Shown here: piece after piece, positions 9,686 to 40,173 of the stretch | How positions within the stretch are numbered: position 1 is the first letter of the stretch | How the letters are laid out: each line of letters opens with the position of its first letter | Source: a bacterium | Lineage (GTDB): Bacteria > Electryoneota > Electryoneia > Electryoneales > Electryoneaceae | DNA: 54,700 nt | Assembly: GCA_019912845.1 (NCBI GenBank) | Contig: JAIOHU010000136.1 | Span: forward strand, 1-54,700 | Reading direction: 5' to 3' | The notes under the pieces: generated by a model | Told to the model about the DNA's origin: nothing | The model's input: the letters and a program-made list of their open reading frames with translations, nothing else | Database searches by the model: none | Position numbers and translations under genes: made by a program

Positions 9686-9692
9686 AGTTTGA

Positions 9693-10929: not shown

Positions 10930-10951
10930 AATAAATTGAGAGGGTTCAAAG

Positions 10952-12625: not shown

Positions 12626-12631
12626 TAACAT

Positions 12632-12651
12632 GACCGCCTCGTTGTGCGGTC
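12632..12651 (+). other. Intercistronic hairpin GACCGC/GCGGTC
   Basis: GACCGC (12632-12637) pairs with GCGGTC (12646-12651) around an eight-base loop in the 47-bp gap between the fusion gene and the aminotransferase gene. There is no T-run, so it is more likely an mRNA stability or processing element than a terminator. Confidence 0.5.
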
Positions 12652-12672
12652 TGGCTATATCAGGGAAAGAAA

Positions 12673-13842: not shown

Positions 13843-13854
13843 AGGTTTTATTCA

Positions 13855-14919
13855 GTGAAAATTGTAACACTTGTCGGGGCGCGCCCTCAGTTTATCAAGG
13901 CTGCGCCCCTTTCATTTGCATATCGTGACGCGGGAATCGAAGAGATCATGGTTCATAGTGGTCAGCATTATGACCATCGAATGAGCCAGGTTTTCTTTGA
14001 TGAGATGAAAATCCCCAAACCGGATGTGAATCTCCATGTCGGATCTGGTTCACAGGGAAAACAAACCGCCGAAATTTTAAGCCGTTTTGAGGAGGTGCTG
14101 GAAGAGCATACTCCTGATATGGTGATTGTTCATGGCGACACAAACACGACTATAGCGGGTGCACTGGCGGCTTGCAAACTGCAAATCCCAATTGCTCACA
14201 ATGAGTCTGGTTTACGGTCATTCAATCGTAGTATGCCGGAAGAGCATAATCGTGTTCTGACTGACCATTGCAGTGATATACTCTTTTGTCCTACGGAACG
14301 AGCTGTAGTACAACTGGCAAAGGAAGGCATCCAGAATAATGTTCATTTTGTCGGTGATGTCATGTATGATGCTACCCTGCTTTTCACTCCGGTAGCAAAG
14401 GAAAAGAGTAGAATTCTGGCTGAACACAAATTGAATCCGGGTGAGTATTACCTGTCGACAATGCATCGTCCCTACACCGTGGATAACAAAGAGCGATTGA
14501 ACAGTATCATCTCAACATTTGGCAAACTTGATAAGCAGATTGTCCTGCCGGTTCATCCTCGTACACAGAAAAAGATGGATGAGTTCAAAATTCCAGTACC
14601 AGAAAACCTGCTTCTCATCGATCCAATTGGTTACCTTGACATGGTTAACCTGACCCACAATTGCTGCATGGTGTTTACCGATAGTGGTGGACTGCAACGT
14701 GAGGCATTTTATCAATCCAAACCATGTGTCGTGCTCAGACCTGAAACAGAGTGGATGGAGATTATCGAGGCAGAGTGGGGAAGAATCGCAGATATCGACG
14801 AGAAAATCCTACTCAGTTCGATTGGCAATAAGTGGTGGAGCGACGAAAGACCAATTCTGCTGGGTGATGGGGATACTGCTGGTAAGATTGTGGAAATAAT
14901 CCGTACCAATTTTGTGTAG
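13855..14919 (+). CDS. UDP-N-acetylglucosamine 2-epimerase family, WbpI/WecB-like
   Basis: The 354-residue protein has the family hallmarks: GARPQFIKAAP at the N-terminus, HSGQHYDHRMS, VHGDTNTT, HNESGLRS and the late TDSGGLQREAF. WecB-type enzymes convert UDP-GlcNAc to UDP-ManNAc. The WbpI branch instead acts on UDP-GlcNAc3NAcA to give UDP-ManNAc3NAcA. The position after oxidoreductase/acetyltransferase and aminotransferase genes favours the WbpI role. The start is GTG at 13855, with AGAGG ten bases upstream, 12 bp after the aminotransferase stop. It is the last gene of this rightward run. Confidence 0.9.
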   Translation: MKIVTLVGARPQFIKAAPLSFAYRDAGIEEIMVHSGQHYDHRMSQVFFDEMKIPKPDVNLHVGSGSQGKQTAEILSRFEEVLEEHTPDMVIVHGDTNTTIAGALAACKLQIPIAHNESGLRSFNRSMPEEHNRVLTDHCSDILFCPTERAVVQLAKEGIQNNVHFVGDVMYDATLLFTPVAKEKSRILAEHKLNPGEYYLSTMHRPYTVDNKERLNSIISTFGKLDKQIVLPVHPRTQKKMDEFKIPVPENLLLIDPIGYLDMVNLTHNCCMVFTDSGGLQREAFYQSKPCVVLRPETEWMEIIEAEWGRIADIDEKILLSSIGNKWWSDERPILLGDGDTAGKIVEIIRTNFV

Positions 14920-14922
14920 TTG

Positions 14923-14970
14923 GCGCTTCCGAATGAAAGCGCGTCATTCCAGCATGTTTTTAGCTGGATT
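14923..14970 (+). repeat. Terminator-like hairpin followed by intergenic repeat family A
   Basis: GCGCTT (14923-14928) pairs with AAGCGC (14937-14942) directly after the epimerase stop codon. A family A repeat follows at 14945-14970: CATTCCAGC and GCTGGATT around a short T-rich loop. Neither is followed by a clean T-run on the plus strand beyond the loop Ts. Confidence 0.6.
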
Positions 14971-15082
14971 CGTAGAACCCGGCCGCAGGCAAAGAATCCG
15001 GGAGTTTTGTTTCATCCAAAAAGGTTAATGAACAGGAACCGGTATTTAACAGAACTAATTGATACCAGTTTCTCCCTTTGTC

Positions 15083-16048
15083 TTACTCCCAATCATCTTC
15101 ACTGTAAAATTCTTCCGCCACCCCCCTTGTTACATCAAAAATCATCCCGATTTCTTCAGAATCGAGACGTTTGCGCCAGCTTTTAATCGTAGCCTGGCTG
15201 TCGACATTCGTCTCATAAGGATTATTTTTAGAGGCTTCCAGTGGATTCTCTCTACTGCTTGAACGAATAATGCTTTTCTCTATAATTGCTGTGAAAGGCA
15301 GGTTCAATCGATAGAAAAGCTCTTTAAAACGATGCACCGGATTACGAGCAAAATCCTCCTGACGGACAAAATGCCAGTGCGGATTTTCACGCTGGTATTT
15401 CGCCACCACAGCATAGATACATTTCCAGGTTAACGCGTTCACCTGAATATCCGGCATCTGTGGACTAGCGTGTACAGCATTCTCAAGCTCACCCGAAAAT
15501 TTGCTCAGATGGTCACGGATCAATAAGGGCTGCTTCAAAAAGTCATTGAGATCAAATCGCCAACCTAATCGTTTCAAGCTGCTCACAAATCCTGCCGGGT
15601 GACGGATGGTTACCACAATATCCGCACTCAGTTTTTCATCAAACCAGGGTATCGAAAACACTGCAAATGGGTCTTTGAGTAGTGCACGATCTTTTCTGAA
15701 GTGAGCATTGGCGTAACGGATATACTCATTAATAAACTTCATCTCAGCCGGACTATAATTTCCGCCAGCGGGGTTTTCCAATCCCAACTCTTTCAAGCCA
15801 CGCACCGGATGAAACCTGAAATTGACTATATCACGAAATGCCTGCTCATAACCACGATCATTTGCGTCACAAATATAAGTATACCAATACTTCGCACGTC
15901 TGGCGAAGGTGCCGGGACGATGTTTGTGCAGGTTCACATTCAACGGCTCGTGAACATACTCCACTCCCTCAGCTTCGCTCAGGATTTTCCCTATCCAGGT
16001 TGTCCCTGAACGGTGTGCGCCGGTTACCAGTATTGGTGGTTTGCTCAT
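15083..16048 (-). CDS. Sulfotransferase family protein
   Basis: The 321-residue protein has the PAPS-binding loop of sulfotransferases at its N-terminus, TGAHRSGTTWIGKIL (about residues 10-24), which cradles the 5'-phosphosulfate. The later VTIRHPAGFVSSLKRLGWR segment holds the 3'-phosphate-binding Arg and Ser. The family moves sulfate from PAPS to hydroxyl or amino groups, here most likely on a sugar. It is convergent with the glycan genes. Together with the APS kinase at 6115-7800 it suggests that the surface polysaccharide made here is sulfated. The acceptor is unknown, and a lipid or peptide acceptor cannot be excluded. Confidence 0.82.
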   Translation of the reverse strand: MSKPPILVTGAHRSGTTWIGKILSEAEGVEYVHEPLNVNLHKHRPGTFARRAKYWYTYICDANDRGYEQAFRDIVNFRFHPVRGLKELGLENPAGGNYSPAEMKFINEYIRYANAHFRKDRALLKDPFAVFSIPWFDEKLSADIVVTIRHPAGFVSSLKRLGWRFDLNDFLKQPLLIRDHLSKFSGELENAVHASPQMPDIQVNALTWKCIYAVVAKYQRENPHWHFVRQEDFARNPVHRFKELFYRLNLPFTAIIEKSIIRSSSRENPLEASKNNPYETNVDSQATIKSWRKRLDSEEIGMIFDVTRGVAEEFYSEDDWE

Positions 16049-17836: not shown

Positions 17837-18201
17837 GGGGACGATTGGTTTCGACGGGACGTCCAGGTGGTGGTACTTGCGCGTCGGGGTGGTTCACAGC
17901 CCCGTACCCCTGTGGACACATTTCAAATGCCGATGATTATGGCTATGCACTCGCAGCCTAACTAAGTTAGGTTAGAGCGTTCCCTCCACACAGCGTCTGT
18001 CCGGTGTGGTTGCGAACGACGATCTGGACGGACTGCCCCGAAGGTAATGCTCGTGCGCCTCCGGTTAAGACTTTACGAGATAACGTTTGCTCGCCTGGCG
18101 GTTGGCAACGGGTGAACGTGAACTTTCAAATAGACCGCCTACACGCGTAGAGGGTATCAGTGCCTCGTATCCGGACCCGGGTTCGACTCCCGGCGTCTCC
18201 A
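17837..18201 (+). ncRNA. ssrA: Transfer-messenger RNA (ssrA, one-piece form)
   Basis: The 5' end GGGGACGATTGGTTTCGACGGG and the 3' end GGTTCGACTCCCGGCGTCTCC are standard tmRNA termini. The acceptor stem pairs GGGGACG with CGTCTCC, with one G-U wobble. The discriminator A at 18201 is followed by CGA, so CCA is not encoded and must be added. The tag frame is readable at 17926-17961: NADDYGYALAA then TAA, possibly with one more resume codon in front. The ALAA end is the usual degradation signal for ClpXP. tmRNA rescues ribosomes stalled on broken messages with SmpB. Its 3' end is the insertion site of a 20.8-kb element. Confidence 0.95.
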
Positions 18202-18240
18202 CGACATAACCCCCAAGCCTTGTATCCACAGGGTTTGGGG
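18192..18240 (+). other. attL: left attachment repeat within ssrA 3' end
   Basis: The repeat begins at GGCGTCTCC in the ssrA acceptor stem and runs through the terminator hairpin. It matches 39008-39056 at 47 of 49 positions. The tmRNA gene upstream is complete, so this is the copy that keeps ssrA functional. Confidence 0.85.
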
Positions 18241-18316: not shown

Positions 18317-19405
18317 ATGATTGATAAAGAACCACCTCCCCCAAAAGTAAAACAACGAAAATATAAGTCTGGATTTAAATCCTGGTACGTTAGGTATAAG
18401 GATTTGGAAAAAGGGGAATGGGTGGCGTCCTCAGCAATCGATAATGAATCTGACGCCTATCTCAAAGCCACACAAATTCGGAAAGAGCAAATGAGAGCAT
18501 GGCGTGGGGAGGAGCCAATACGCGAAGAAGACATTTTGCTTTCGGAACTATTAATAAGATTCTTTAGAAATAGAGAAGCGTCTCTCAAACAATCATCACT
18601 TTCACGCTATCGGATATATGAAAAAAACCTTAATGAATTTTTAAATGAACTTTACCCCAATGGAATCTACTGTCGGAAGATTAAAGCAGTATATCTGGAA
18701 GAATGCCTCGAATATTTAAAACGAAAAGGGCAAAATGAAAGAACCCTAAATGGACAGTTGCGATTTTTGAGGGCTTTATTTAATTATGCGGTTCAGGAAG
18801 ATATTCTTGAAAAGAATCCTGCCAGAAATATTCGTAAAAGAAAAGAAAATGATCGTGCACAACCCTTAAAAAGCTGGAATCGAACACAAGTGGATAATAT
18901 TTTATCGACCCTTTCTCCTCATTGGGCAAAGATTCATGAGTTTTACCTTCACACCGGGCTGCGTAAGATGGAACTAGTAAACTTGAAGTGGAATGCTGTC
19001 TTTCTTGATGCTACACCACCTCATATTCGAATACAAGCCACTGATAATTGGGAACCCAAAACTTCAGAAATACGATTGATTCCACTTTCAGATCGGGCAA
19101 TAGAGCTGATTAAATCTCAGATTAAACAGGAAGATCATGATTTTGTGTTTTCTGGTCCAATGGGAAATAAAATTCATGAAAATCGAGTATATGATGTTTT
19201 GAAGAAAGTCTTGGATGAATTAGGTTATGAAGGTACTCTTCACTGGTGGCGTCACACTTTTGCGTCTAGATTAGGGGAAAATGGGTATAGTCCTGATGCT
19301 ATAAGGAAATTGCTGGGGCATACAACAACGGAAATGACCGCACGATACACACATTTCCAGGATACTTTTCTTGTTGAAATGGTTAAAAGCTTAGATGAGC
19401 GGTAA
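18317..19405 (+). CDS. int: Tyrosine recombinase/integrase of the ssrA-inserted element
   Basis: The 362-residue protein has all residues of the tyrosine recombinase active site: R216 (TGLRKMEL), K248 (EPKTSEIR), H309 and R312 (LHWWRHTF), H335 (LLGHTT) and nucleophile Y344 (ARYTHF). An N-terminal AT-hook-like or arm-binding segment (1-60) and a SAM-like core-binding domain (about 70-165) precede the catalytic domain, as in phage and island integrases. It lies just inside attL with ATCAGGGAAAA as ribosome binding site before ATG 18317. It should catalyse integration at, and with a directionality factor excision from, the ssrA 3' end. It appears intact. I see no obvious excisionase unless the small HTH protein at 19856 serves. 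Confidence 0.95.
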   Translation: MIDKEPPPPKVKQRKYKSGFKSWYVRYKDLEKGEWVASSAIDNESDAYLKATQIRKEQMRAWRGEEPIREEDILLSELLIRFFRNREASLKQSSLSRYRIYEKNLNEFLNELYPNGIYCRKIKAVYLEECLEYLKRKGQNERTLNGQLRFLRALFNYAVQEDILEKNPARNIRKRKENDRAQPLKSWNRTQVDNILSTLSPHWAKIHEFYLHTGLRKMELVNLKWNAVFLDATPPHIRIQATDNWEPKTSEIRLIPLSDRAIELIKSQIKQEDHDFVFSGPMGNKIHENRVYDVLKKVLDELGYEGTLHWWRHTFASRLGENGYSPDAIRKLLGHTTTEMTARYTHFQDTFLVEMVKSLDER

Positions 19406-22994: not shown

Positions 22995-23756
22995 TCATGC
23001 TGCTTCCCCCTGTTGCTTCTGTTTACGATCACCGGGATCATCAAAATCGGACTCAGTGATACCAACACCAAACACAGCTTTGCATTCTTCACGTACCTGC
23101 ATGGCAAGGTTCAGTTCATCCTGTGATACCACACGATCTACCTTGCATTCAACTTCTGCCCAACGAAAACCGTTACGTGCGACATCAGCCAGGGTAAACC
23201 GTGTAACCACTGCAATGGAAGGTGCTTTGGAACGCGCTAACCGTGCAACATGATTACGCCAGTGTTTGATACTGGTAGGCGACAGGTTGAATACGATCAA
23301 CTGATAACGATCATCCATGTTGGTCAGCACAAACAACCGTATCTTGTCCTTGGCATCCTTCGCATGGATGGTACTTTCAGGTGAACTGGTCACACGTCCA
23401 TCAACTGCTGTGTATCGTGGAACTTGTTCCCCTTCAACCCAGAAAGCACTTACCTTTTGATGGTATACAACGATACCTGCAAAGGTGTTGCCTTCCAGAT
23501 CAACCTGTGCTTCCTGATCATCAGAATAGGATTCACCCAGATCAAGGAACATACGGTGTCTTCCACTCGGGCTATGATCAATACGTACACGAGGGAATAC
23601 CGGTTGCAGGTTTTCAGTCATGATTGCAACTTCAGTGTCCAGATCAAGTCCCTGAAGGGATGAAAGTTCATCTTCAGAAATGATCGCCGATCCCTTATCA
23701 CCATTTACTTTTGATGGGGTAAATCCGTTGCTGTTTGTAGTTCTTTTCCTTGTCAC
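22995..23756 (-). CDS. Hypothetical protein of the element's nuclease operon
   Basis: The 253-residue product is not recognised. It has no membrane segment and no clear enzyme motif. The middle (about 50-190) is beta-rich and protein-like, and the C-terminus is rich in charged residues (ESDFDDPGDRKQKQQGEAA). The acidic tail and its company with a nuclease and DUF932 protein would suit a single-strand DNA-binding or recombination-accessory protein, but that is inference only. GTG 23756 overlaps the nuclease stop as GTGA with GAGGAGG just upstream, so translation is coupled to the nuclease frame. This coupling matters because the nuclease gene carries an internal stop. Confidence 0.75.
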   Translation of the reverse strand: MTRKRTTNSNGFTPSKVNGDKGSAIISEDELSSLQGLDLDTEVAIMTENLQPVFPRVRIDHSPSGRHRMFLDLGESYSDDQEAQVDLEGNTFAGIVVYHQKVSAFWVEGEQVPRYTAVDGRVTSSPESTIHAKDAKDKIRLFVLTNMDDRYQLIVFNLSPTSIKHWRNHVARLARSKAPSIAVVTRFTLADVARNGFRWAEVECKVDRVVSQDELNLAMQVREECKAVFGVGITESDFDDPGDRKQKQQGEAA

Positions 23757-24676
23757 GCCGCCTCCTCAAGGTTTTGTACAAGTTGTTGAATCTGTGACTT
23801 CTGATTACGGTTCAAACCCATACCACAACTATCTTTTGCACACATTTCCGCGTACGGGCATAACGGACAAGTGTGATAAGACGGATTTCTTGGAAAGACA
23901 CCACGTCTTATGTTGGTTGCGACCTTGCTAAGGTCTTGTTTTAGAGATTTAATTTGCTCTTCAGATCTTGCTGTGGTTCTTCTTGGATCACCACGTTCAT
24001 CACCGATCTGATTGTTCTTGGTCTTCCGTTTGTAAGGAATGTGATCACGCAAATGATACCAGGTGATCTTCAATCTGTCCGGTGGGATATCCAGCAAACG
24101 GAGCGTACCATCAGATGATTTGAACGTTGCATCAGCACAAGCTAACGCATACAGACCGAACTGATAATCTACATCCAGAAACGCTTGTGATGGTGCAAAC
24201 TTCGATGTTTTGAAGTCCAAGAGTTCATACATCCCATCTGGATGTTTGCGGATCTGATCAACTGTACCACGGAAGATACCTGCACGTCCTACCTACAGAA
24301 CAAATGTGGATTCATTCAGAATCACATGTGCATCCCAGTTGTAGTCCTTATCCCGATAGTTATCCAGCATTTCAATAGCTTCTTTAACCAGTTTATCCAC
24401 TACCTTATCACGATCTTCTTTCCAGAACACAGGAGTAACTGCTTCTTCGCTATCGAATTCGTGATACTGCAACACTTCACGATATCTTTCTTCGATATTC
24501 AGTTCCCAGTTGTGTTGGTGCATTTCTGATAGTAGTTGATGGATAATGGTTCCATGTAATGCTGCTGAACTGCGGAAAGTGGGTAGGATTTCATCTACAT
24601 AACGATACTGGAAGTTTTTGGGACACCACAGGTAGGACTTAATCATCGATTGCCTTAAGTAATCGATCTGAACCAC
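23753..24676 (-). pseudogene. Cas4/RecB-like PD-(D/E)XK nuclease interrupted by an in-frame TAG
   Basis: Both halves lie in one frame (308 codons from GTG 24676), split only by a TAG at 24295-24293, codon 128. The first half has the SxxxxxxCPKNFQYRY motif of Cas4/AddB/RecB-like nucleases. The second has GTVDQIRKHPDG and LLDFKTSK (motif II-III D and K) and a C-terminal CPLCPYAEMC with another Cys. Four cysteines in these positions suggest a 4Fe-4S cluster, as in Cas4 and AddB. The family resects DNA ends or acts in phage recombination. The rest of the sequence shows no decay. It may be a recent nonsense mutation, a sequencing error, or two fragments translated separately from ATG 24232. TAG ends neighbouring genes normally, so general recoding is unlikely. 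Confidence 0.8.
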
Positions 24677-25935: not shown

Positions 25936-27030
25936 TTAAAAGTTCCTTAAAGAATCAACAACATATTTGACCTGTTCTTCGTTCATTTCTGGGAAAAGGG
26001 GTAGAGATAAGGTTTTAGATGCGTAGCTTTCAGTAATTGGAAAGTTTCCACTTTGATATCCCAAAAACTCGAATCCCGGATGCATATGTAATGGAATTGG
26101 ATAATGCATGTTTGCATTCACTCCATTGCTTTTTAAGCTAGCAAACAGCTCATCACGTTTCTCATAAGTGACAGCAAAGACATGGTAATTGCTCTTGTAC
26201 CCGTCTGGTATTTTTTGAAGTGCCAAGTCAAACTGGGAGAGTTCCTCACGATAAATTGCCGCGATTTTTAGTCTGGCATCATTCCAGTTGTCCAAATAAG
26301 GTAGTTTTACACGGAGAAATGCCGCCTGCAATCCATCCATCCTAGCATTTTGACCAATGAGATCGTGGACGAACTTTTCAGTGGAACCATGATCACGATA
26401 TTTACGGCAGCGTTCAGCGACATCATTATCGTTAGTTGCAATTGCACCCGCTTCACCGAGCGCGCCCAGATTTTTCCCTGGATATAATGAAAATGCAGCA
26501 GTATTTCCAAGTGCCCCTGTCTTTTTACCATGAAAGGTTGATCCTGGGGAGTGTGCGCAGTCCTCAAGAACCCATAAATTATAATTTACTGCAATGCCAT
26601 GGATTTTTTCCATATCCGCAGGAAGTCCAAGCAGATGAACAGGAAGTATTCCAACAGTTTTTGATGTAATTGCTTGCTCGATCTGATTTGGATCAATGCA
26701 CCATGTACTCCTATCTATATCCACGAATACAGGTGTCCCACCTGCCAGGATAACAGCTTCAGCGGTAGCATAAAAGGTCATTGCCGGTACAATTACCTCA
26801 TCACCTTCGCCGACTCCCAGTGCTTGGAGAGCGATATGCAGTGCAGCAGTCCCGCTTGATACACCAATTACGTTATCAACTCCAAGATATTGAGCAAATT
26901 CTGTTTCAAATGCTGAAACCTCTTTTCCCAGAACAAATGAGGAATCTTGGAGTACCCGTTCAAATGCAGCTATAAGTTCAGGTTTCAGATTGACATGTTG
27001 AGCGTGTAAATCAAGATTGGGGATATTCAT
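25936..27030 (-). CDS. DegT/DnrJ/EryC1 sugar aminotransferase (island)
   Basis: The 364-residue PLP enzyme has its lysine at K186 (YPGKNLGALG) and the aspartate D157 (LEDCAHSPGS), like the chromosomal aminotransferase at 12673-13842. The family transfers an amino group to keto sugars bound to UDP or dTDP; FdtB- and WlbC-type 3-aminotransferases are the closest in motif style. It is the last gene of the nine-gene leftward operon, 24 bp after the radical-SAM gene. A ketosugar could come from the Gfo/Idh oxidoreductase of the same operon. No acetyltransferase is encoded in the operon, so either the amino group stays free or the chromosomal beta-helix enzyme acetylates it. Confidence 0.88.
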   Translation of the reverse strand: MNIPNLDLHAQHVNLKPELIAAFERVLQDSSFVLGKEVSAFETEFAQYLGVDNVIGVSSGTAALHIALQALGVGEGDEVIVPAMTFYATAEAVILAGGTPVFVDIDRSTWCIDPNQIEQAITSKTVGILPVHLLGLPADMEKIHGIAVNYNLWVLEDCAHSPGSTFHGKKTGALGNTAAFSLYPGKNLGALGEAGAIATNDNDVAERCRKYRDHGSTEKFVHDLIGQNARMDGLQAAFLRVKLPYLDNWNDARLKIAAIYREELSQFDLALQKIPDGYKSNYHVFAVTYEKRDELFASLKSNGVNANMHYPIPLHMHPGFEFLGYQSGNFPITESYASKTLSLPLFPEMNEEQVKYVVDSLRNF

Positions 27031-27054: not shown

Positions 27055-28479
27055 TTAATGTTTAAGTTTCAGGTTTTGGAAATAGTTCGATAAATGCGAA
27101 AAACCAACCTTATCCCAGCCCTGAATTATATTTATCAAACGAGATAATCCGACAAGAATCGTGAAAGAAGGTATTCTTAACACCCTGTGAATTTTTTTAT
27201 CAACCAAATAGCGTATCAGCCATTCTGGGAGATGAGGAAGAAAGGCAAGTATAAACTGTACCCCAAGCCATTGCTGACTTTTTTTATCTGATGGAAATAG
27301 ATAAGAATGTTCTCCAAATCCAATACCGTGCGAATACTCTTCAATTTTTTCAGATGTGAGTAAGTTCTTTTCAGAGGCGATCCTCATCCACTCAGATCCA
27401 GGCAAAGGCGTAAACCAGTACACTTTTATCGCATCCGGTTTGTTCTTCAAATAGAAATCTGCCGTTTCATCGATTTCTTCAGGGTGCTCGTTTGGTATAT
27501 TGATAATGTGGTCTACCTCAACTCTGATGCCACTTTCTTTGGCAGCCCTGATTGCCTCTGATGCAGTAAGATTCGATTCGAGCCGATTCAGCATTTTTCT
27601 CGATTCGGGATTTATTGTCTGAACCCCTAGTCTAATCGAAAAACACCCTGCTTTTTGGAGTATAATTGCTGTTTCCCCATCCATCAATTCGGGGTGAGTG
27701 ATACAATGAAACGGCAGGTCTATCCACCTGGAATAGTCAAGAAGAAATTTGCGTAACCAGGGTTTTGACAGTGTAAACACATCGTCAACAAAATAAACGG
27801 ATTCCACTGGATAATTTCGGACTGCCCATTCCAGTTCTTTTATTACATGGTCTACTGAACGCTGTCGAACCCTACTACCATTATTTCTTGCTCCAGCGCA
27901 AAAAGCACATGTGAAAGGACATCCACGTGAAGTTGAAATAAGATAATCTCTTGCCATTTCTGGATGATCAAGGTAAAAAAGATGTTTTGCCGGAATAGGG
28001 AGATCATTTATATTTGAAAGTGGCGGCGAAGTCGTAGCAGGATTGTTATTTCCGTAAAGCCAGTCTGGTGTAATGTCATTTCGCACAGTTCTTTCCAATG
28101 CCTCGCAAAAAACGGAATCCGCTTCACCACACACAACTGCATCAAATCGACCATCCTGCAGTGCAATCCTTGGAAGTGCTGTAGCATGTGCACCACCTGC
28201 AATAGTAGTGATCCCTCGTTCCTTTAATGCTCGTGCTATCATAGCCATGGACTGAAAAGTTGGGCTGACTAGTGAAAAGCAAACGATATCGGGTTTGAGA
28301 GTGAGTACTTTTTCTACTGCCTCTGATTTTTGTTGCAAAGTCAGCGGTCTATACCCTTTGATATAATTGCCAATATCTATCTCTGCGAGGGCTACTGAAT
28401 GCCCGGAGTTTTCAGCCAGGGCAGCGAGGATGGAAATTCCGAGGTGTTCGTACCCATCGTATGGAAAGACAACGTTCAA
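27055..28479 (-). CDS. B12-binding-domain radical-SAM protein (island, first)
   Basis: The 474-residue protein has an N-terminal cobalamin-binding-like Rossmann domain (about 1-135) and the radical-SAM cluster motif CPFTCAFC (C187, C191, C194) preceded by STSRG. The C-terminal about 90 residues are hydrophobic and not recognised. Class B radical-SAM proteins of this layout include methyltransferases and other enzymes acting on unactivated carbons of sugars, lipids or peptides. In a glycan operon, C-methylation of a sugar or a lipid-linked intermediate is a reasonable guess, but the substrate cannot be read. It overlaps the preceding gene by four bases (ATGA). Confidence 0.85.
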   Translation of the reverse strand: MNVVFPYDGYEHLGISILAALAENSGHSVALAEIDIGNYIKGYRPLTLQQKSEAVEKVLTLKPDIVCFSLVSPTFQSMAMIARALKERGITTIAGGAHATALPRIALQDGRFDAVVCGEADSVFCEALERTVRNDITPDWLYGNNNPATTSPPLSNINDLPIPAKHLFYLDHPEMARDYLISTSRGCPFTCAFCAGARNNGSRVRQRSVDHVIKELEWAVRNYPVESVYFVDDVFTLSKPWLRKFLLDYSRWIDLPFHCITHPELMDGETAIILQKAGCFSIRLGVQTINPESRKMLNRLESNLTASEAIRAAKESGIRVEVDHIINIPNEHPEEIDETADFYLKNKPDAIKVYWFTPLPGSEWMRIASEKNLLTSEKIEEYSHGIGFGEHSYLFPSDKKSQQWLGVQFILAFLPHLPEWLIRYLVDKKIHRVLRIPSFTILVGLSRLINIIQGWDKVGFSHLSNYFQNLKLKH

Positions 28480-29792
28480 GAGGAATCTCCTCTTAAATTA
28501 CTGAGTTGGTTGTCTGCATTTCTGTTTATTGGGTAGCTGGCTTTCAGACTCAATAGTGATTTTATCAAGACACGGATCATATATGCAGCATTCCAGATGC
28601 ATTTCTGGCACAAGGTAAATGTATACAACAATCCTTGTCGTAGCTGACGGATTTTCACATTAACCTGACCATCCAGTGATGCCGCCACTGTTCCGGGTCG
28701 AGGATTAAATGCATGTACTTGAACATTGTTGAAATAATTCTCTGCGAAGAAACGGAGGGTTGTTACAAAGTCGAACCAAGTTTCGCCGGGAAATCCAGTG
28801 ATAACCTGGGTTTGCAGGACAGTTCCAGGGCTGACTCTGCGGATCGATTTTGCAAGATGCCTGAACTCAGTAAGAGAATAACCACGTCTCATACCATTCA
28901 GAACCCTATCACTACCACCATTCAACGCAAGATGGATAAATTTAATTCTCCCGGCCGCCAGGAGAGGTATCAACTTATCCAACCTTTCAATCAGCCAGCG
29001 GGGGTGTGCATAAAAGAGTAGTAAATCAAAGTTGCCAGGTATTTCGAATATTTTTTTGAGCAATGTTGTAATATCGTCTCCGTTATCCCGACCCCAAGCT
29101 GAGAGTTCTGTTGCAGTTAATAAAATTTCATCATGACCGGAATCCACACCTTTCTTGACTTCGTTGATAATCTTATCCATGGGACGGCTTTTCAGCTTAC
29201 CCCGCGAGAATCGGATCGCGCAGTAGGTACATGCACCCAGGCACCCTTCAGCAATACGGACGACATAACTATCAGGTGAGTGGTCATACATCAACAATCG
29301 ATCCAGATGATTTCGTTTATCTCTATCAAGGTGTTTCCGCAAATTTGTCAGATGACGAGCTATTAGGCGACGAAATGGTTTTTCATACTTGAAAAATGGT
29401 TCAGCAATTTGATTCGGTCTGAATTGATCCCAGCTTTTTCCATCAAGAGGAAAAAAGTTTGAAAGGTGTTCTATATCGGTCGCGGGAATAATAATGTTAT
29501 CAGGGAAATACTGTTTGCATTTTTCTGGGGCAATTTTCGGAAGACAACCAGACAGAACAACAATTCCCCTGCCACTAAGTTGTTTATCAATTTCCAGTGT
29601 TTTTTGAACAGATTCAGTCTCTTTTTCTGAGTGATAGGCACAACTGTTTATGAGGACGACATCTGATTCTTCGATGGAATTAGTCCAGAGAAATCCTGCT
29701 TGTTCAAGCCAGGCTGCAGCGTGGCTGCCATCCAACTGGTTTTGCGGACAACCACCTGAATTTGCCCATATATGATAACGACGATTACCCAT
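28476..29792 (-). CDS. MiaB-like methylthiotransferase, CDKAL1/archaeal MtaB-style clade, no TRAM domain
   Basis: The 438-residue protein has the UPF0004 domain with three cysteines (C15, C51, C83) that bind the second cluster, and the radical-SAM motif CLGACTYC (C184, C188, C191). The AIRFSRGKLKSRP and ALNGGSDRVLNGMRRGY segments resemble the CDKAL1 / archaeal e-MtaB branch more than bacterial MiaB or RimO. The usual C-terminal TRAM domain is missing; after about residue 380 comes an unrelated hydrophobic stretch. Classic members add methylthio groups to tRNA adenosines. The context in a glycan operon, between two other radical-SAM genes, suggests a changed substrate. The start overlaps the upstream gene by eight bases. 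Confidence 0.82.
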   Translation of the reverse strand: MGNRRYHIWANSGGCPQNQLDGSHAAAWLEQAGFLWTNSIEESDVVLINSCAYHSEKETESVQKTLEIDKQLSGRGIVVLSGCLPKIAPEKCKQYFPDNIIIPATDIEHLSNFFPLDGKSWDQFRPNQIAEPFFKYEKPFRRLIARHLTNLRKHLDRDKRNHLDRLLMYDHSPDSYVVRIAEGCLGACTYCAIRFSRGKLKSRPMDKIINEVKKGVDSGHDEILLTATELSAWGRDNGDDITTLLKKIFEIPGNFDLLLFYAHPRWLIERLDKLIPLLAAGRIKFIHLALNGGSDRVLNGMRRGYSLTEFRHLAKSIRRVSPGTVLQTQVITGFPGETWFDFVTTLRFFAENYFNNVQVHAFNPRPGTVAASLDGQVNVKIRQLRQGLLYTFTLCQKCIWNAAYMIRVLIKSLLSLKASYPINRNADNQLSNLRGDSS

Positions 29793-30885
29793 TCCTAATT
29801 CCAGCCAGTGCTGTTTTTATCAATTTCGATGCTATCTTTCTTTGAGTGCTGCGTGATTTCATCATAGAGGCACTTAGAAAGCACTGATGCCAGCAATAAC
29901 ACTCTTCTTCATCGACTTTTCTCATGGAATCTTTCAAAACTGAGCTTTGCCATATATTTCTGAAATCATATCCTGCACTACGAACATTTCCAATGACTTC
30001 TCCTCTAAGTTCACATATTGGTACATCACCATTGGGATATAGCACTGCTGTTTCACTCAATGCACTGCAACGAATAGGCATTTTATCTGACCTCGCAATC
30101 TCAGCGATCAGTTCTTTCTGAACGAAATCCTTTGAGTTTACAATTTTCGTAAAATTGCTGTAGCCTCTAAGTTTTTCAGTCTTCAGCTGTTGCTCAGCAA
30201 ATTCTGAAATTTTCAAAAACACATCTGTATACTTTTTCGCAGCTTCTGGTTCCCTTGTTTGACCACGTACAAGGATTGGGGTAAGATTGTCAAGATCAAG
30301 ATTTTCTACAGCCCATTTTGCGGTATCGAAACTAGAATTGTAATTCAATCCGGAAACACAAATTCCACATCCAAGACGTAAATTTGGGAAATCTGATTTT
30401 AACCTGCTTACTACCTCAAATGAGGAAACAGCTCGTTTAAATAAACCTTGAACCCCCCTGATTTCATCACACTCTTCTCCAAGTGCATCAAGAGAGATAT
30501 CGACTGTCAAAGCTGCATCAGGGTGTTCTCCAAGATATGATATTAGAATATTTTCAAGTTTAAATGGATGATTTCCATTACTGCAGAAGGTGATATTCAA
30601 TGGATTATTGTAGCGATGTACCAGTTTTAAAATATCCGAAACATGATTTTGGAGTTCAGGGCTGCCACCAGTGATCGTAACTTGAACCATTGATCCAAGC
30701 GATTTCAACACGGATTCTATTTCTTCCAGGCTTAATTCATCCGTGTTGCTGTTTATCTGACGCCAGTAAAAACAGTGCCCGCACATTGCTTCACATCGAT
30801 TTGTAACAAAGAAAATCAAATATGAGGGAAGTGTCGGCATTGGGGAGGCCAACCGCGCAAGTGATTTTACCTGGCTGATTTTCAT
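29785..30885 (-). CDS. Radical-SAM protein with SPASM-like C-terminus
   Basis: The 366-residue protein has CEAMCGHC (C31, C35, C38), the canonical radical-SAM cluster motif, and TITGGSPEL as the glycine-rich motif. A C-terminal region with further cysteines (VLYPNGDVPICELRGEVIGN, then CYCWHQC) fits a SPASM or twitch domain that holds auxiliary clusters. Such proteins mature peptides or oxidise sugar and alcohol substrates, as in dehydrogenases of aminoglycoside synthesis. The substrate is unknown. It starts one base after the end of the sugar transferase gene. Confidence 0.85.
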   Translation of the reverse strand: MKISQVKSLARLASPMPTLPSYLIFFVTNRCEAMCGHCFYWRQINSNTDELSLEEIESVLKSLGSMVQVTITGGSPELQNHVSDILKLVHRYNNPLNITFCSNGNHPFKLENILISYLGEHPDAALTVDISLDALGEECDEIRGVQGLFKRAVSSFEVVSRLKSDFPNLRLGCGICVSGLNYNSSFDTAKWAVENLDLDNLTPILVRGQTREPEAAKKYTDVFLKISEFAEQQLKTEKLRGYSNFTKIVNSKDFVQKELIAEIARSDKMPIRCSALSETAVLYPNGDVPICELRGEVIGNVRSAGYDFRNIWQSSVLKDSMRKVDEEECYCWHQCFLSASMMKSRSTQRKIASKLIKTALAGIRNG

Positions 30886-30886
30886 C

Positions 30887-31492
30887 TTACCAACTTCTTC
30901 GATTTATCAGTGAACGTGGAGTAATGAGAAGTATAAGAGTATCCAGTAATAGAGTATGATGTTGAACGTAAAACATATCAAGGCGACGCATAACCTTATC
31001 AGAGTTGGCATTCTGACGAAAAACCTGCCAATAACCCGTAATTCCTGGTGGAATACTCAATAGCTGATGAACATCATTGCCATACAAGTACAGCTCTTCA
31101 GGCAATTTGGGTCGTGGACCTACAAGGCTCATATCACCTTTAATAACGTTAAATAACTGTGGGAGTTCATCCAGGTTAGTTTTGCGCAATACCATTCCAA
31201 AAGGAGTAACACGTGGATCATTATCAAGTTTAAAGTTGGTTCGAAACAAATCCTTCTGGTTAGTGTCTAGAAACTCATCATTGTTCAAATGCATGGTTCT
31301 GAACTTCAGCATGTTGAATGAAATGCCATTTATTCCAATTCGTCGGCTGCGGTAGAACACTGGTCTTCCATCTTTGACTATTATCAGAAGTGAGATAATC
31401 AACATTAAGGGCAGGAATAAGATCACAAAAAGGGAACTTAAGATGATGTCCAGTATACGTTTTGCTGAATTCTCATCTTGAAAACCATTCAT
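30887..31492 (-). CDS. Initiating sugar-phosphate transferase (PglC/WcaJ family)
   Basis: The 201-residue protein is the short monotopic form of the bacterial sugar transferase family. One N-terminal hydrophobic helix (ILSSLFVILFLPLMLIISLL) is followed by FYRSRRIG, FNMLKFRTM, the catalytic Asp-Glu dyad in TNLDELPQ, and SLVGPRP. It transfers sugar-1-phosphate from a UDP-sugar to undecaprenyl phosphate at the cytoplasmic face, the first step of glycan assembly. The N-terminal four-helix domain of the WcaJ type is absent, as in PglC. The gene overlaps the Gfo/Idh gene by four bases (ATGA). Confidence 0.93.
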   Translation of the reverse strand: MNGFQDENSAKRILDIILSSLFVILFLPLMLIISLLIIVKDGRPVFYRSRRIGINGISFNMLKFRTMHLNNDEFLDTNQKDLFRTNFKLDNDPRVTPFGMVLRKTNLDELPQLFNVIKGDMSLVGPRPKLPEELYLYGNDVHQLLSIPPGITGYWQVFRQNANSDKVMRRLDMFYVQHHTLLLDTLILLITPRSLINRRSW

Positions 31493-32538
31493 TTATTCAA
31501 CTCCACAGTCATACCCTGATTTTCAAGTGATGCACGCGCAGCTTCAAGTATTTTTACCACTTTCCTGCCAAATTCCAAGTCGACAATAGGATTTCGTTTT
31601 TCTTTTATGGATGCCAGGAATTCATAAATTTCTGCTTTCAAAGGTTCGCCATTTTTCAGTGGAATTTCACTAGTTGACAATGCAGAATTAACCAGTTTTT
31701 GAGATTTTCCATTTCTTAACATTTGAAGTGGTGGAGCTTCAGTGAAGTGAGTCAGTTTTTCTGATCCATAGTCTGACTGCAGAACCAGTGTGCCTTCCAT
31801 GCCTTCGGCAAGAATACGACGTCGTCTCACTCCACTTGACCAGGCAACTTCAACCTTGCAAATGAGCCCATTTTTCCAGGCGAGTACGAGTATAGCGCGA
31901 TCGGGAGTGTTGAACTGTAATCTCTCTATCCCCCAAGCATTTACGCGAACCGGAAGCGTATCGACAACTGAGAGCATAATCGCAATATCATGCGCAGCGA
32001 CCTCTGTTAGAACATCAGTTGAACGGTAAATGGGGCCTAAATGAGTTCTACGGAGTGAAAGGTGACGCAATTCTCCGATCTCACCTCTCTTTATACGAGA
32101 TGTAAGTTCAATGATGCCAGGGCTGAAAGAAGTTATATGCCCTACCATTAAAACATAGCCGTTCTTATGATTGCTCAGTTCCTCGGCCTCCACAGTTGAC
32201 CAGCAAAGTGGCTTTTCAACAAATACATGCTTTCCAGAATCCAGACATTTTCTCACCAGCTCAAAATGATCGGGTAACGGCACAGCAATAACTACAGTTT
32301 CAATTGAATCATCTGAAAGGATCGATTGCAAATTCTTCATTATTTTAGAATCAGGATATTGTTCCAGTATCAACCGTGATCGATTTTCATCTTTGTCGTA
32401 TACGTGAACCCTGCAACCCAATTCATGCAGCACCCGAACCAGGTTGGGTCCCCAATACCCCACACCAATCACAGCAACATCAATGCTATCTAACGCAACC
32501 GAAGAAGTGTTTCGTCCAATATCCATATCCGCACCCAC
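31489..32538 (-). CDS. Gfo/Idh/MocA family sugar oxidoreductase (island)
   Basis: The 349-residue protein has the NAD-binding loop GVGYWGPNLVR near residue 21 and the EKPLCW motif near 112. It resembles the oxidoreductase half of the fusion protein at 10952-12625 in the loop and EKP regions. The family oxidises or reduces sugar hydroxyls and keto groups. With the aminotransferase at the end of the operon it forms a keto/amino pair for an amino sugar. Unlike the chromosomal relative it carries no acetyltransferase domain. Confidence 0.88.
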   Translation of the reverse strand: MGADMDIGRNTSSVALDSIDVAVIGVGYWGPNLVRVLHELGCRVHVYDKDENRSRLILEQYPDSKIMKNLQSILSDDSIETVVIAVPLPDHFELVRKCLDSGKHVFVEKPLCWSTVEAEELSNHKNGYVLMVGHITSFSPGIIELTSRIKRGEIGELRHLSLRRTHLGPIYRSTDVLTEVAAHDIAIMLSVVDTLPVRVNAWGIERLQFNTPDRAILVLAWKNGLICKVEVAWSSGVRRRRILAEGMEGTLVLQSDYGSEKLTHFTEAPPLQMLRNGKSQKLVNSALSTSEIPLKNGEPLKAEIYEFLASIKEKRNPIVDLEFGRKVVKILEAARASLENQGMTVELNK

Positions 32539-32544
32539 TTTAAT

Positions 32545-33564
32545 TCACTTTTTCTGAAATGGTTTTACTGATCCATTGGTCAAGATTTCTAGATGGTATA
32601 GCGAAGAACCTAGAAATACTGCGATTCCACGAGTAAAATCTAATATCAATGTTGTGACTGTTATTTGTACAACATTTGACCTGAATCGATCGGTTAGAAA
32701 GTTTATCAACTTGATTCGGAGAATAAACCAAGTTGTAACAGAGACAATTAACCATTTAAGTTCTCTCATCAAGAGAAATAGTCCAATTAATCCACACACC
32801 AGAACTGCGGCAATGCTTGTCGATCCCGCGTGGCGATTATTAGTCAGACGAACCCTGTTTTTCCAGTGGATATAAACATCCTCGCTACCTTTGCGAAGAT
32901 CATTCAGGATCAGTTCTTTATAATTCAAATGTGCCAGATGCTGCGCAGTTGCCTCAGGAACAGCATACACTTTGTAACCGTTTTTTGTAAGTCGAATTCC
33001 CAGATCGATATCCTCAGGTCCAGCACCTGCGAATGTTTCTGAAAAACCATTTAGTGACCGAAACAAATCAAATCTGACAGCACCCAGGGCTGTCCAGAAT
33101 TGATCCTTTTGCAAACTGGCACTTTTGCTGTATGTATACGCCAGGTATTTCTGCTTATATGCTTCAGAAAATCGTTTTCCATAAACATTTTGAGAGTACC
33201 TGCCCATTGTCGCATCAGCGACACCCTCACGAATTGGCTGGACTAAATAGTGAATAGCGTTATTATCAACGATTACATCTGCATCAATAAAAATCAGGAT
33301 GTCACCGGTAAAACCTTCTGCACCAATGTTTCTTGCCCTCCCTGCACCTGCACTGCCATCTGTTTTACGTATGTTCACATTAAAGGGTTTAGCCAATTCC
33401 GCAAGAATAGCATTTTCCCCGTCATCAACCAGTACAATTTCCGTTTCCCATCCTACGGCTTTCCTCAGGGCGGAAAGGCATTTTTCAATTGTTTGGCTGG
33501 CTTTTCGGCAGGGTACGATGATACGCACTTCCTGTTTTCGAATTTCCCAATTCACTGTCTTCAC
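32545..33564 (-). CDS. Family 2 glycosyltransferase (first in operon order after radical-SAM)
   Basis: The 339-residue protein has a GT-A fold typical of family 2: VRIIVPCRKASQTIEKCLS at the start, VLVDDGE, the DXD-type IFIDADVIV and GAGPEDIDLGIRL. A hydrophobic stretch near the C-terminus (SIAAVLVCGLIGLFLLM) suggests membrane association. It adds a sugar to the lipid-linked glycan in the cytoplasm. The frame opens at GTG 33564, overlapping the upstream radical-SAM gene by 80 bp. An internal GTG at 33528 just before RIIVPC could be the real start, reducing the overlap to 44 bp. Confidence 0.88.
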   Translation of the reverse strand: MKTVNWEIRKQEVRIIVPCRKASQTIEKCLSALRKAVGWETEIVLVDDGENAILAELAKPFNVNIRKTDGSAGAGRARNIGAEGFTGDILIFIDADVIVDNNAIHYLVQPIREGVADATMGRYSQNVYGKRFSEAYKQKYLAYTYSKSASLQKDQFWTALGAVRFDLFRSLNGFSETFAGAGPEDIDLGIRLTKNGYKVYAVPEATAQHLAHLNYKELILNDLRKGSEDVYIHWKNRVRLTNNRHAGSTSIAAVLVCGLIGLFLLMRELKWLIVSVTTWFILRIKLINFLTDRFRSNVVQITVTTLILDFTRGIAVFLGSSLYHLEILTNGSVKPFQKK

Positions 33565-34933
33565 TTAATCCTTTTCCTGATAGCAGACGTACAACAGCTC
33601 CAATCTTTGGTTTCAAATAGTTAAACATTCCACGAAATTTACCATTCATAAGGAAAAACGAGAGATACCCGATAATCTGATAGATCATCAAAACACGTCT
33701 GGGTAGTCTCTTGATCTTCAGCGCACTTCCGCCGTACCGATCATAAGCATCCCAGTCTTTTTCCAGGTTCAATTTGTATCCAAACTTTCCTTCACTTGCG
33801 TAGTCGTATATTTTTGTCCCAGGATACGGAACCATGACTCCCAATCCGATCTCGAATGGATTTATTCTCACCGCTGCACGAATGGTATCCCATATAGATT
33901 TATGTGTTTCTCCCGGGTGACCCAGAATAAAAAAGGTAAAAGGTTTAATCCCCGCTCTCTTTATTTTCTGCACTGCCTGATCAGCTTCTTCGATTTTGTA
34001 GTTCCGACCACTATTTTTTAACACCCTGTTGTTACCTGATTCAACACCGATGCAAATCAAATTGCAATTTGCTCGTTTTGCCTTTTCAAGCAACTCCTCA
34101 TCAACCAGTTTCGGATGAGTCATACAATTGAAATAGGATATTTGGGGGATGTTTGTTCTCAGAATAGCATCGAGAATCTGATGTGTCGTTTCATTTTTAT
34201 AGAGGAAAATTTCGTCGTGCAGGAACACTTTTTCAGCACCATAATACCTGACAGCCTTCTCCCATTCTTCAACTACTGCTTCCGGATCCCGCCAACGTAC
34301 ACGGTCGCCCAGAACACGCATGCAGTACCCACATTTAAATGGACAGCCTCGACTAGCAAAAAGTCGGTACTCACTATCTGGATGAGTTTTGAACCAGTCT
34401 TTTTTGTAGTACAAATCGACAGCTGGTTGTGGTATTGTTTTGAGGTCAAGAAAATCGCTCTGTCTTCCGTTGAAGTGGGTATCTCCATTTCTACGGAAAG
34501 CCAGCCCCTTTATCTTTTCAAAATCACAGGTGCCATCCAACTGTGCTAATAGCTCTGTGAAGGGTACTTCTCCTTCACCTGCAATCGAAAAATCAAGCTG
34601 AGGGATTTCCTTCAGCGTCTCTTCAGGGCGTGCACTGGTGTGCGGTCCTCCTAATATGGTATGGATAGACGGCTTATTCTCTTTGACAACTTCAAAGATT
34701 TCTTTTGCACGAACCATCTCATGTGTCATTGCTGTTACACCGACAACGTCACATTTCCTCTGTGTGATTTCGGAAAGTAAATCTCCCGCACCCATCCGAT
34801 GGAAAGCAGCATCCAGAATTTCCACTTTATGACCTTGTCCGCGTACGTAACCCGCAACATAGGCTAATCCAAGCATATGGGAATGATACCAGTTAAAGGC
34901 ATCACCCCAGGGTTTCACCAGGAGAACATTCAT
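33485..34933 (-). CDS. B12-binding-domain radical-SAM protein (island, second)
   Basis: The 482-residue protein has an N-terminal cobalamin-binding-like domain (about 1-135; ILGGPHTSARPEETL) and the radical-SAM motif CPFKCGYC (C197, C201, C204). The later IGVESGNNRVLKNSGRNY and FILGHPGET motifs are typical of class B radical-SAM enzymes. It is distinct from the protein at 27055-28479. The C-terminal tail, from about residue 410, has a hydrophobic segment and is not recognised. The chemistry is probably methylation or another carbon-centred step on a lipid or glycan. It overlaps the upstream glycosyltransferase by four bases and the downstream one by 80 bp. Confidence 0.85.
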   Translation of the reverse strand: MNVLLVKPWGDAFNWYHSHMLGLAYVAGYVRGQGHKVEILDAAFHRMGAGDLLSEITQRKCDVVGVTAMTHEMVRAKEIFEVVKENKPSIHTILGGPHTSARPEETLKEIPQLDFSIAGEGEVPFTELLAQLDGTCDFEKIKGLAFRRNGDTHFNGRQSDFLDLKTIPQPAVDLYYKKDWFKTHPDSEYRLFASRGCPFKCGYCMRVLGDRVRWRDPEAVVEEWEKAVRYYGAEKVFLHDEIFLYKNETTHQILDAILRTNIPQISYFNCMTHPKLVDEELLEKAKRANCNLICIGVESGNNRVLKNSGRNYKIEEADQAVQKIKRAGIKPFTFFILGHPGETHKSIWDTIRAAVRINPFEIGLGVMVPYPGTKIYDYASEGKFGYKLNLEKDWDAYDRYGGSALKIKRLPRRVLMIYQIIGYLSFFLMNGKFRGMFNYLKPKIGAVVRLLSGKGLSEDSELGNSKTGSAYHRTLPKSQPNN

Positions 34934-35967
34934 TCACTGTCCTCCTGTTTTGAACCGAATCTGATCAGCAAACCATTAACAATACCTGCCAGGGAACCCA
35001 GAAAATGGGCGGTATGATATGTGATTATGGAAAGTGCAGTTAATGAGGTGAATGCAAACGACCGTTTTTGAATTGTCGCAGCATAGGCTGCGAGAAAAGA
35101 AATCAATGTGTAGATACATGCAGCTTTGGCGAAAATGGAAAAGGACTTTCGAAATATTGAGTATACTACGATGCCCAGTCCAGAAAACAAGGGAATGGTA
35201 TGCCTTTTATTCAAGCATGCGTTATGTCTAATTGAAGCGATCATCCGGTGTCTGGCATTCTGGAATCCCTTGCTGAAAAGTAAGGGGAAAGATTCAATAG
35301 TGCGGTATCTGGATACAATAGTTGGCGAAAAACAGGAACGCGCTCCGGTGTCAATCAACCGTTTATACCAGTCACAGTCTTCACCTCGAACCAGGGATTC
35401 GTTGAAAAAACCTGCTTTATCTACGTACTCACGTTTTACTGAATGCCAGTGCCCTATTGTATCAGCTTTAAATTTTCGACGAGTGAATGAATTGGTGCCG
35501 ACAGCAAAACGAGAAGAAAAAGCTTGAATGATTGTGTTTGGGATTAAATCCCTGGAGGGTGTCCAAGGAACCACACGTCCGCACACCATATCCCACTCAC
35601 CTGACAAGAGGATACGAACAACATTTTCAATGTATGTTTTGCTGGGAATCGCGTGACCAATATACAATGCAACAATATCGCCCTTACATTTTTTCAGCGC
35701 GATGTTTAATCCCTGCGCAATGCCACCATGTGGATTTTCATACATACGAAGCCAGGTAGGTTGCGAGGACTGGTAGGATTCTAGGGTCGAACGCGTACCA
35801 TCATTTCCACTGACGGCAAGGACCACTTCAATTTTATCTTTGGGATAGCTTTGATTCAAGAAGGAATCGAGACAATCCTTAATTACCTTTTCTTCGTTTC
35901 GAACCGCCATGAAAACGGATACTACTGGAAAATATTGATTTGCAATATCTTGTGTTGAGTCAATCAT
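34930..35967 (-). CDS. Family 2 glycosyltransferase heading the island glycan operon
   Basis: The 345-residue protein begins VVSVFMAVRNEEKVIKDCLD, a classic family 2 start, and has ALYIGHAIPS in the metal-site region and VRGEDCDWYKRLIDTG as the acceptor-site ED motif. In the metal-site region the usual DXD is replaced by GHA, as also seen in some members. C-terminal hydrophobic helices (about 245-335) anchor it at the membrane. It is the first gene of the nine-gene operon. Its start at ATG 35967 lacks a strong binding site. Confidence 0.87.
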   Translation of the reverse strand: MIDSTQDIANQYFPVVSVFMAVRNEEKVIKDCLDSFLNQSYPKDKIEVVLAVSGNDGTRSTLESYQSSQPTWLRMYENPHGGIAQGLNIALKKCKGDIVALYIGHAIPSKTYIENVVRILLSGEWDMVCGRVVPWTPSRDLIPNTIIQAFSSRFAVGTNSFTRRKFKADTIGHWHSVKREYVDKAGFFNESLVRGEDCDWYKRLIDTGARSCFSPTIVSRYRTIESFPLLFSKGFQNARHRMIASIRHNACLNKRHTIPLFSGLGIVVYSIFRKSFSIFAKAACIYTLISFLAAYAATIQKRSFAFTSLTALSIITYHTAHFLGSLAGIVNGLLIRFGSKQEDSE

Positions 35968-38955: not shown

Positions 38956-39007
38956 TTATGATGTTATAGATGTATGTTGATGATTGGAAATTGTTTCCCA
39001 GGATCTG

Positions 39008-39060
39008 GGCGTCTCCACGACATAGCCCCCAAGCCTTGTATTCACAGGGTTTGGGGCTAT
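39008..39060 (+). other. attR: right attachment repeat with displaced ssrA end and terminator
   Basis: Positions 39008-39056 match attL 18192-18240 at 47 of 49 positions, starting with GGCGTCTCCACGACATA. The hairpin ATAGCCCC (39022-39029) / GGGGCTAT (39053-39060) is a second version of the ssrA terminator, followed by CTTTATT. No tmRNA body lies to its left, so this is the displaced copy. Confidence 0.85.
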
Positions 39061-39096
39061 CTTTATTCAGATGTGATAACTAGGAGGTTAATAAAA

Positions 39097-40173
39097 ATGA
39101 TTGATTCGAACCCCCCAGTTAAAATTTCGAAGCAGGCATTAGATTCTCTTATTGAGAAACAGAATCTACTTGTCAGCCTGGTAGACTCAGAATTAGCAGC
39201 TCTGGCGAATATAAATGTTCTGCTGGGCAATAATCCCTTCTCGATTGCACATACCAACCATGAAAACCACATTAGATTTATTTCTACTGTGCTATCGTTT
39301 GGTGCTAAAGATTTATTGATTAATATGTTACCCTGGGTCTATAGATCTTATCATTCACACGGCGTTTCTTATGATTATTTTCCTGTAGTCTTGAAGGCGT
39401 GGGAAAAGGTTATTTCTGCTACACTCACGCAGGAAGAATCAAAAGAAATCATACCACTTTACCACTGGATGAGAGCTCAGCATTCCAACGTAATCATTGA
39501 AGCCGAGTCATCTTCAAATAAATCAAGCATTCAAGACAATCCGGGTGGAATAATCAATAGTGACTTTCTTGCTGCAATTTTACAAGGTGATCATCGGACA
39601 GCAACACAACTGGCATTTGACTATGTTCAGGATCCAAGCTACTTAGCTGGTTTTTACATTAAAACGATACAGAGTAGTTTGTGGAATGTTGGTGAAATGT
39701 GGGAGCACGGCTTGATTACTGTAGCTCAGGAGCATTTGGCAAGCGCTACAGTTGGAAATGTGATGGCAAATCTTTACAGCCGTACACGCTTTACAAAAAA
39801 ACAAATGGGCGTAGCCATCGTGACTACTGCTTCAGGTGAGTTTCATGAGATTTGTAGCCGAATGGTAGCAGACCTTTTGGAAACAGATGGATGGGAAGTT
39901 AAATATTTAGGTGCAAATACTCCACCTGAAGATGTAGCATCACTCTGTGCATCAATGAATGCTAAATTCGCAGCAATATCAGTTACCATGCATTTTAACC
40001 TGCCATCTGCAGGAAAAATTATTGAGGCGATTCGCCAGCATTCAGACAAAACACGGATTTTGGTTGGAGGTCAAGCCTTCGCCAATCCAAGTGAGCTCTG
40101 GCGCACGATCGGTGCTGATGCATATGGTGCCGATGTGGCAACTTCAGTTGATTTGGCTCGTAGTTGGGTATGA
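39097..40173 (+). CDS. Cobalamin-binding sensor protein, CarH/AerR-like B12 module
   Basis: The 358-residue protein from this start has an N-terminal helical region (about 1-135) and a two-part cobalamin-binding unit. The helical cap has the Trp and EH residues seen in CarH-type modules (VGEMWEHGLITVAQEHLASA). The Rossmann part has the likely cobalt-ligand His in TTASGEFHEICSRM followed by VKYLGANTPPEDV and VGGQAF. No DNA-binding or catalytic domain is present, so it is likely a sensor that signals to a partner, perhaps through light or B12 status. AGGAGG sits seven bases before ATG 39097. The frame stays open through attR to ATG 38974, but that extension lacks a binding site. The next gene follows after 10 bp. 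Confidence 0.85.
   Translation: MIDSNPPVKISKQALDSLIEKQNLLVSLVDSELAALANINVLLGNNPFSIAHTNHENHIRFISTVLSFGAKDLLINMLPWVYRSYHSHGVSYDYFPVVLKAWEKVISATLTQEESKEIIPLYHWMRAQHSNVIIEAESSSNKSSIQDNPGGIINSDFLAAILQGDHRTATQLAFDYVQDPSYLAGFYIKTIQSSLWNVGEMWEHGLITVAQEHLASATVGNVMANLYSRTRFTKKQMGVAIVTTASGEFHEICSRMVADLLETDGWEVKYLGANTPPEDVASLCASMNAKFAAISVTMHFNLPSAGKIIEAIRQHSDKTRILVGGQAFANPSELWRTIGADAYGADVATSVDLARSWV

Follow-up and report, generated by a model that had tools for sequence, protein, structure and literature searches.

Gene content of the locus

The window, by which we mean the whole stretch of 54,700 nucleotides analysed here, carries on its minus strand a tight operon of nine genes that spans 35967 to 25936 and in which no gap exceeds 24 bases. 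Its first gene encodes a family 2 glycosyltransferase (GT2; 34930..35967) that shares 36% identity with the GT2 lying immediately upstream of a 52%-identical methylthiotransferase (MTTase)-like gene in a Bacteroidetes genome (L048). It is followed by a B12-binding radical SAM protein (33485..34933), which scores far below the cut-off of its nearest NCBIfam models, BchE/HpnJ; a second family 2 glycosyltransferase (32545..33564), whose listed GTG start may be too early given its 80-base overlap with the preceding gene; a Gfo/Idh/MocA sugar oxidoreductase (31489..32538); a bacterial sugar transferase of the polyprenyl-phosphate sugar-1-phosphate transferase family (30887..31492; PF02397); and a radical SAM protein with a SPASM domain (29785..30885). 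The seventh gene, 28476..29792, encodes the MTTase-like protein studied here and overlaps the SPASM gene by 8 bases. A second B12-binding radical SAM protein (27055..28479) begins in a TTGA overlap with the MTTase-like gene, whose last codons carry its ribosome-binding site, and a DegT/DnrJ/EryC1/StrS sugar aminotransferase (25936..27030) ends the operon. This content, with two glycosyltransferases, a sugar-phosphate transferase, an aminotransferase and a sugar oxidoreductase next to four radical SAM enzymes among the nine genes, bears out the sugar operon that the first-pass annotation had proposed. A RiPP precursor was ruled out, as the gaps leave no room for one in the operon and the flanking gaps hold none that is convincing.

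Several other features of the window are worth recording. The protein encoded at 38974-40173, near the operon and its two B12-binding radical SAM enzymes, has B12-binding domains of two types (PF02310, PF02607). A second glycan cluster, at 6115-16048, contains a flippase, a GDP-mannose dehydratase-like protein, a DegT protein and a UDP-GlcNAc 2-epimerase, and is adjoined by an ATP-sulfurylase/APS-kinase fusion and a sulfotransferase, so that sulfated surface sugars may also be made. Between 17837 and 25439 lie a tmRNA gene (17837-18202) and, after it, genes for a phage-type integrase (18317-19405), a primase-like DUF5906 protein and a DUF932 protein, together with exonuclease pieces, as would be expected of an integrative element adjoining the glycan operon. 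The PD-(D/E)XK exonuclease (phrog_1218) of this region is split across two reading frames (24293-24676 and 23753-24232), which suggests a broken gene.

A methylthiotransferase-like protein without TRAM

The MTTase-like gene is an intact reading frame of 438 amino acids that fills 28476-29792 exactly; the first-pass annotation had these coordinates right and left the strand, minus, unstated. The UPF0004 (MTTase N-terminal; residues ~10-98) and Radical_SAM (core ~180-348) domains both score above the Pfam gathering thresholds. All six cluster cysteines are in place, as had been claimed: the three of the UPF0004 domain (C15, C51 and C83) and those of the radical SAM CxxxCxxC motif (C184/C188/C191). 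An AlphaFold model built from a 33-sequence alignment (mean pLDDT 86.5, pTM 0.84) has MtaB, MiaB and RimO as its best Foldseek matches in the PDB. Compared with its homologue in L048, the gene differs by 0.42/0.32/0.69 at the three codon positions, as expected with selection on the protein; together with the cysteines, which are invariant across the relatives described below, this rules out a decayed gene.

The protein lacks the C-terminal TRAM domain of the MTTase family, and neither Pfam TRAM nor TRAM_2 was found in it. A six-frame search of the locus with a TRAM profile derived from the tails of e-MtaB proteins gave no TRAM remnant, and the same profile detects TRAM in the MiaB, MtaB and RimO of the source genome. 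Loss through a frameshift is ruled out by this search and by the overlap with the next gene. Structure prediction of the C-terminus, a check proposed by the first-pass annotation, places a single long helix (residues 379-419) where TRAM would be, followed by 19 final residues that are disordered in the model. The tail from residue 379 is hydrophobic, amphipathic and cationic (9 K/R, 2 D/E). It is not a transmembrane segment, its highest 19-residue Kyte-Doolittle mean of 1.33 being too low. The earlier description of a missing TRAM and a short hydrophobic tail is therefore upheld by Pfam, the six-frame profile and the predicted helix. The loss of TRAM is genuine and common to the whole clade to which the protein belongs.

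None of the NCBIfam models accepts the protein. Its best model, TIGR00089, is a near miss: the score of 242.9 bits falls short of the cut-off of 251, which two relatives, L006 and L049, exceed (251.6 and 273.1 bits). It reaches 208 bits against 314.7 for TIGR01578 (e-MtaB), 187 against 357 for TIGR01579 (bacterial MtaB), 178 against 357 for TIGR01125 (RimO) and 161.6 against 355.3 for TIGR01574 (MiaB). Ordinary MiaB, MtaB and RimO are present elsewhere in the source genome, all above their cut-offs, so the window protein is an additional, fourth family member.

A fifth clade and its neighbourhoods

Searching about 1,500 genomes and also the species-representative contigs, we found around 12 relatives without TRAM in several bacterial phyla. 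They come from the Bacteroidetes genome L048 (52% identity, on a contig that ends before the C-terminus), three LCP-89-type genomes (L006, L008 and L009, the last cut at its 5' end), Ca. Tariuqbacter arcticus (L007; NCBI phylum Ca. Electryoneota), a Falkowbacteria (L049) and a Nealsonbacteria genome (L075), these named organisms all being metagenome-assembled, and from genomes G279, G456, G569 (two tandem copies) and G953. The relatives are sparse even where they occur, with 3 in 391 genomes of the class of L048 and 1 in 7 of that of G279; in the phylum of L049, 4 of 380 genomes had a match at the threshold used, two of which (L160, L161) have frames long enough for TRAM. The viral collection held no relatives, and matches in plasmid and phage records were all below 60% identity, the annotated ones among the matches listed being MiaB or RimO.

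In an unrooted tree built without the TRAM columns, 13 TRAM-less proteins group together in a single clade with support of 100/98, which is still 100/99 after removal of the longest branches. The e-MtaB (100/99), RimO (100/100) and MiaB (100/100) clades and that containing the MtaB of the source genome (100/99) are likewise well supported, and the window protein lies outside both the MiaB and the bacterial MtaB clades. AU tests, for which the groups were named and both questions posed after a first tree was known, reject placing the window protein and its L048 homologue inside e-MtaB (p=0.017) or inside RimO (p=0.035). Membership of either is ruled out by the separate clades and these tests. 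The first-pass annotation had assigned the protein to the CDKAL1/archaeal branch and had proposed a phylogeny against MiaB, RimO, MtaB and CDKAL1. That phylogeny gives a separate clade, with archaeal e-MtaB standing for the branch and CDKAL1 itself absent from the tree. The GCLGxCxYC motif does resemble that of e-MtaB, and among the named clades this one is the closest in path length, which in an unrooted tree does not imply sisterhood; as nesting within e-MtaB is rejected, the assignment was only nearly right. The case that the annotation had named against itself, an ordinary tRNA-modifying enzyme that had lost TRAM by a frameshift, is not what we found, given the separate clade and the absence of a TRAM remnant. 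Judged from their sequences, the TRAM-less proteins are a real, conserved fifth clade of MTTase-like proteins, rare and spread across several bacterial phyla.

The clade is also distinguished by individual residues, which we compared in 83 sequences grouped by the tree. The six cysteines occur without exception in the 12 complete members (L009 lacks its N-terminus), unlike the residues fixed in e-MtaB, which are not kept across the clade. The 56 MiaB, MtaB and e-MtaB sequences all have Asp at position 329, where the 14 RimO sequences all have Ser or Thr and the 13 TRAM-less proteins, without exception, His, Gln or Glu; the window protein has Gln. We would like to point out that Asp at 329 as a mark of the tRNA-acting enzymes was defined in the present analysis from these 56 sequences and is not a published criterion. 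At position 53, the tRNA-acting groups have Val or Ile and RimO has Phe; 11 of 12 TRAM-less members have Phe or Tyr there. Arg258, kept in nearly all sampled MiaB, MtaB, e-MtaB and RimO, is missing from all 13, and the GFPGE region is present in nearly all of them.

Of 12 TRAM-less loci, 7 have genes for glycan or envelope functions within 5 kb, compared with 2 of 28 e-MtaB and none of 11 ordinary MTTase loci; the contrast is descriptive, and 7/12 against 2/39 overstates it, because the neighbourhood queries were drawn partly from the TRAM-less loci and so favour them. In a polysaccharide cluster (L162), two tandem TRAM-less copies stand beside carbamoyltransferase, DegT, PglF-like and sugar-transfer ATP-grasp genes; a SAM methyltransferase follows the two copies there (L162:8112-10791). 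Two LCP-89-type genomes (L035, L037) share the gene order SGNH hydrolase, TRAM-less MTTase, LptD and OPT transporter, which is an envelope link independent of glycosyltransferases. A GT-C protein neighbours the locus of L036 and a GT4 that of L165. The comparison showed no glycan neighbours for the patescibacterial members L049, L075 and L164.

Shortened proteins also occur elsewhere in the family. Two MiaB-clade proteins of one family (f101; L131 and L145) end soon after the radical SAM core, at 378-379 residues, possibly through an independent loss of TRAM.

Possible substrates and relation to known systems

The tRNA is contacted by all three domains of MTTases, and what separates MiaB from MtaB in specificity is not set by TRAM (PMC10702137), so the loss of TRAM alone does not exclude an RNA substrate. 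Taken together, however, the clade-wide loss of TRAM, the presence of the protein in addition to MiaB, MtaB and RimO, the linkage to glycan and envelope genes and the absence of Asp329 make a substrate other than tRNA likely, as the first-pass annotation had proposed.

The reading that we favour, and to which we would give an even chance, is that this fifth clade applies MiaB-type chemistry to an envelope glycan, a glycolipid or a related small molecule. The family chemistry and the conserved motifs suggest how the reaction may proceed. SAM would methylate a sulfide on the auxiliary [4Fe-4S] cluster bound by C15/C51/C83; a second SAM at the CxxxCxxC cluster would give a 5'-deoxyadenosyl radical, which would abstract hydrogen from an unactivated carbon; and the resulting substrate radical would gain a methylthio group, or sulfur only. 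The gene neighbours point to the class of acceptor, which would most likely be an envelope glycan, glycolipid or sugar precursor from the same operon; an envelope sugar or lipid is our best single guess, and the methylthiolation of a sugar or lipid that the first-pass annotation had thought possible stays an inference. From its sequence alone, the cationic amphipathic helix at the C-terminus may hold the enzyme at the inner face of the membrane, where polyprenyl-linked sugars are assembled. The narrower proposal, that the clade puts methylthio groups on the sugars of surface polysaccharides or glycolipids by radical chemistry and would be the first MTTase to act beyond tRNA or S12, is more tentative and falls somewhat short of an even chance.

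It is conceivable, if rather unlikely, that the acceptor is neither RNA nor glycan, and that a peptide, lipid or other secondary metabolite is (methyl)thiolated, with the sugar genes serving to decorate that molecule as well. Peptides are frequent substrates of SPASM enzymes, and the SPASM gene lies directly upstream of the MTTase-like gene; RimO offers the precedent of a protein substrate. SAM methyltransferase genes near three clade members (L049, L162 and L165), and a SPASM radical SAM gene that together with GT4 gives the L165 locus the look of a natural-product cluster, are also consistent with such an acceptor. Against this reading, no precursor-like small reading frame fits into the operon and none in the flanks convinces, and the LptD and polysaccharide neighbours at other loci point to the envelope instead.

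It is quite improbable that the iron-sulfur chemistry is kept for a reaction other than methylthiolation, such as a C-S crosslink, a methyl-free insertion of sulfur or another use of the auxiliary cluster. The lack of Arg258 throughout the clade and the apparently large changes on the substrate side would fit such a reaction, which is opposed by the three auxiliary-cluster cysteines kept across the clade and by the GFPGE region kept in nearly all members.

The least probable reading is that the protein, despite the loss of TRAM, is still an ordinary tRNA methylthiotransferase, one that forms ms2A in some special tRNA: a fold like that of MtaB and MiaB, the proximity of e-MtaB among the named clades, the RNA contacts outside TRAM (PMC10702137) and the two MiaB-clade proteins that likewise end before TRAM speak for it, but the genome already has MiaB and MtaB, the clade is very patchily distributed, the gene sits in a glycan operon, and none of the 13 members has the Asp329 that all sampled tRNA-acting enzymes share.

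If action on an envelope glycan or glycolipid is correct, radical SAM sulfur chemistry would extend to carbohydrates or lipids, and the clade would supply candidates for assay. The absence of TRAM and the loss of one Asp could serve as a sequence test for non-tRNA MTTases among proteins annotated as tRNA enzymes. Our searches of the open-access literature brought up neither TRAM-less MTTases nor MTTases located in glycan clusters. Four MTTase clades have been described, of which only RimO is known not to act on tRNA (PMC10702137).

The window protein shares the order of UPF0004 and radical SAM domains and the six cysteines with MiaB and bacterial MtaB, which differ in having a TRAM-type C-terminal domain and a fixed Asp329. 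With e-MtaB (archaeal/eukaryotic MtaB, the CDKAL1 branch) it has the GCLGxCxYC motif and the overall fold in common, whereas it lacks TRAM and the V53, R258, G260, M261 and D329 fixed in the sampled e-MtaB, and belongs to a separate clade. An e-MtaB once suspected of cofactor modification proved to act on tRNA (PMC10702137); this, like the patescibacterial loci that showed no glycan neighbours, weighs against the reading that we favour. Like RimO, the window protein probably does not act on tRNA, and it has an aromatic residue at position 53 and no Asp at 329; RimO, however, has TRAM_2 and Ser/Thr329, acts on ribosomal protein S12 and is rejected as a grouping by the AU test. Among methylthiolated small molecules, the 17(2)-methylthio-F430 of ANME-1 archaea is one without a known enzyme (PMC10702137). 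A methylthio-sugar already known from bacteria is the methylthioxylose (MTX) of mycobacterial lipoarabinomannan, an envelope polysaccharide; its pathway, according to the account of Angala 2017 given in PMC11127046, starts from 5'-methylthioadenosine rather than from a radical SAM methylthiotransferase.
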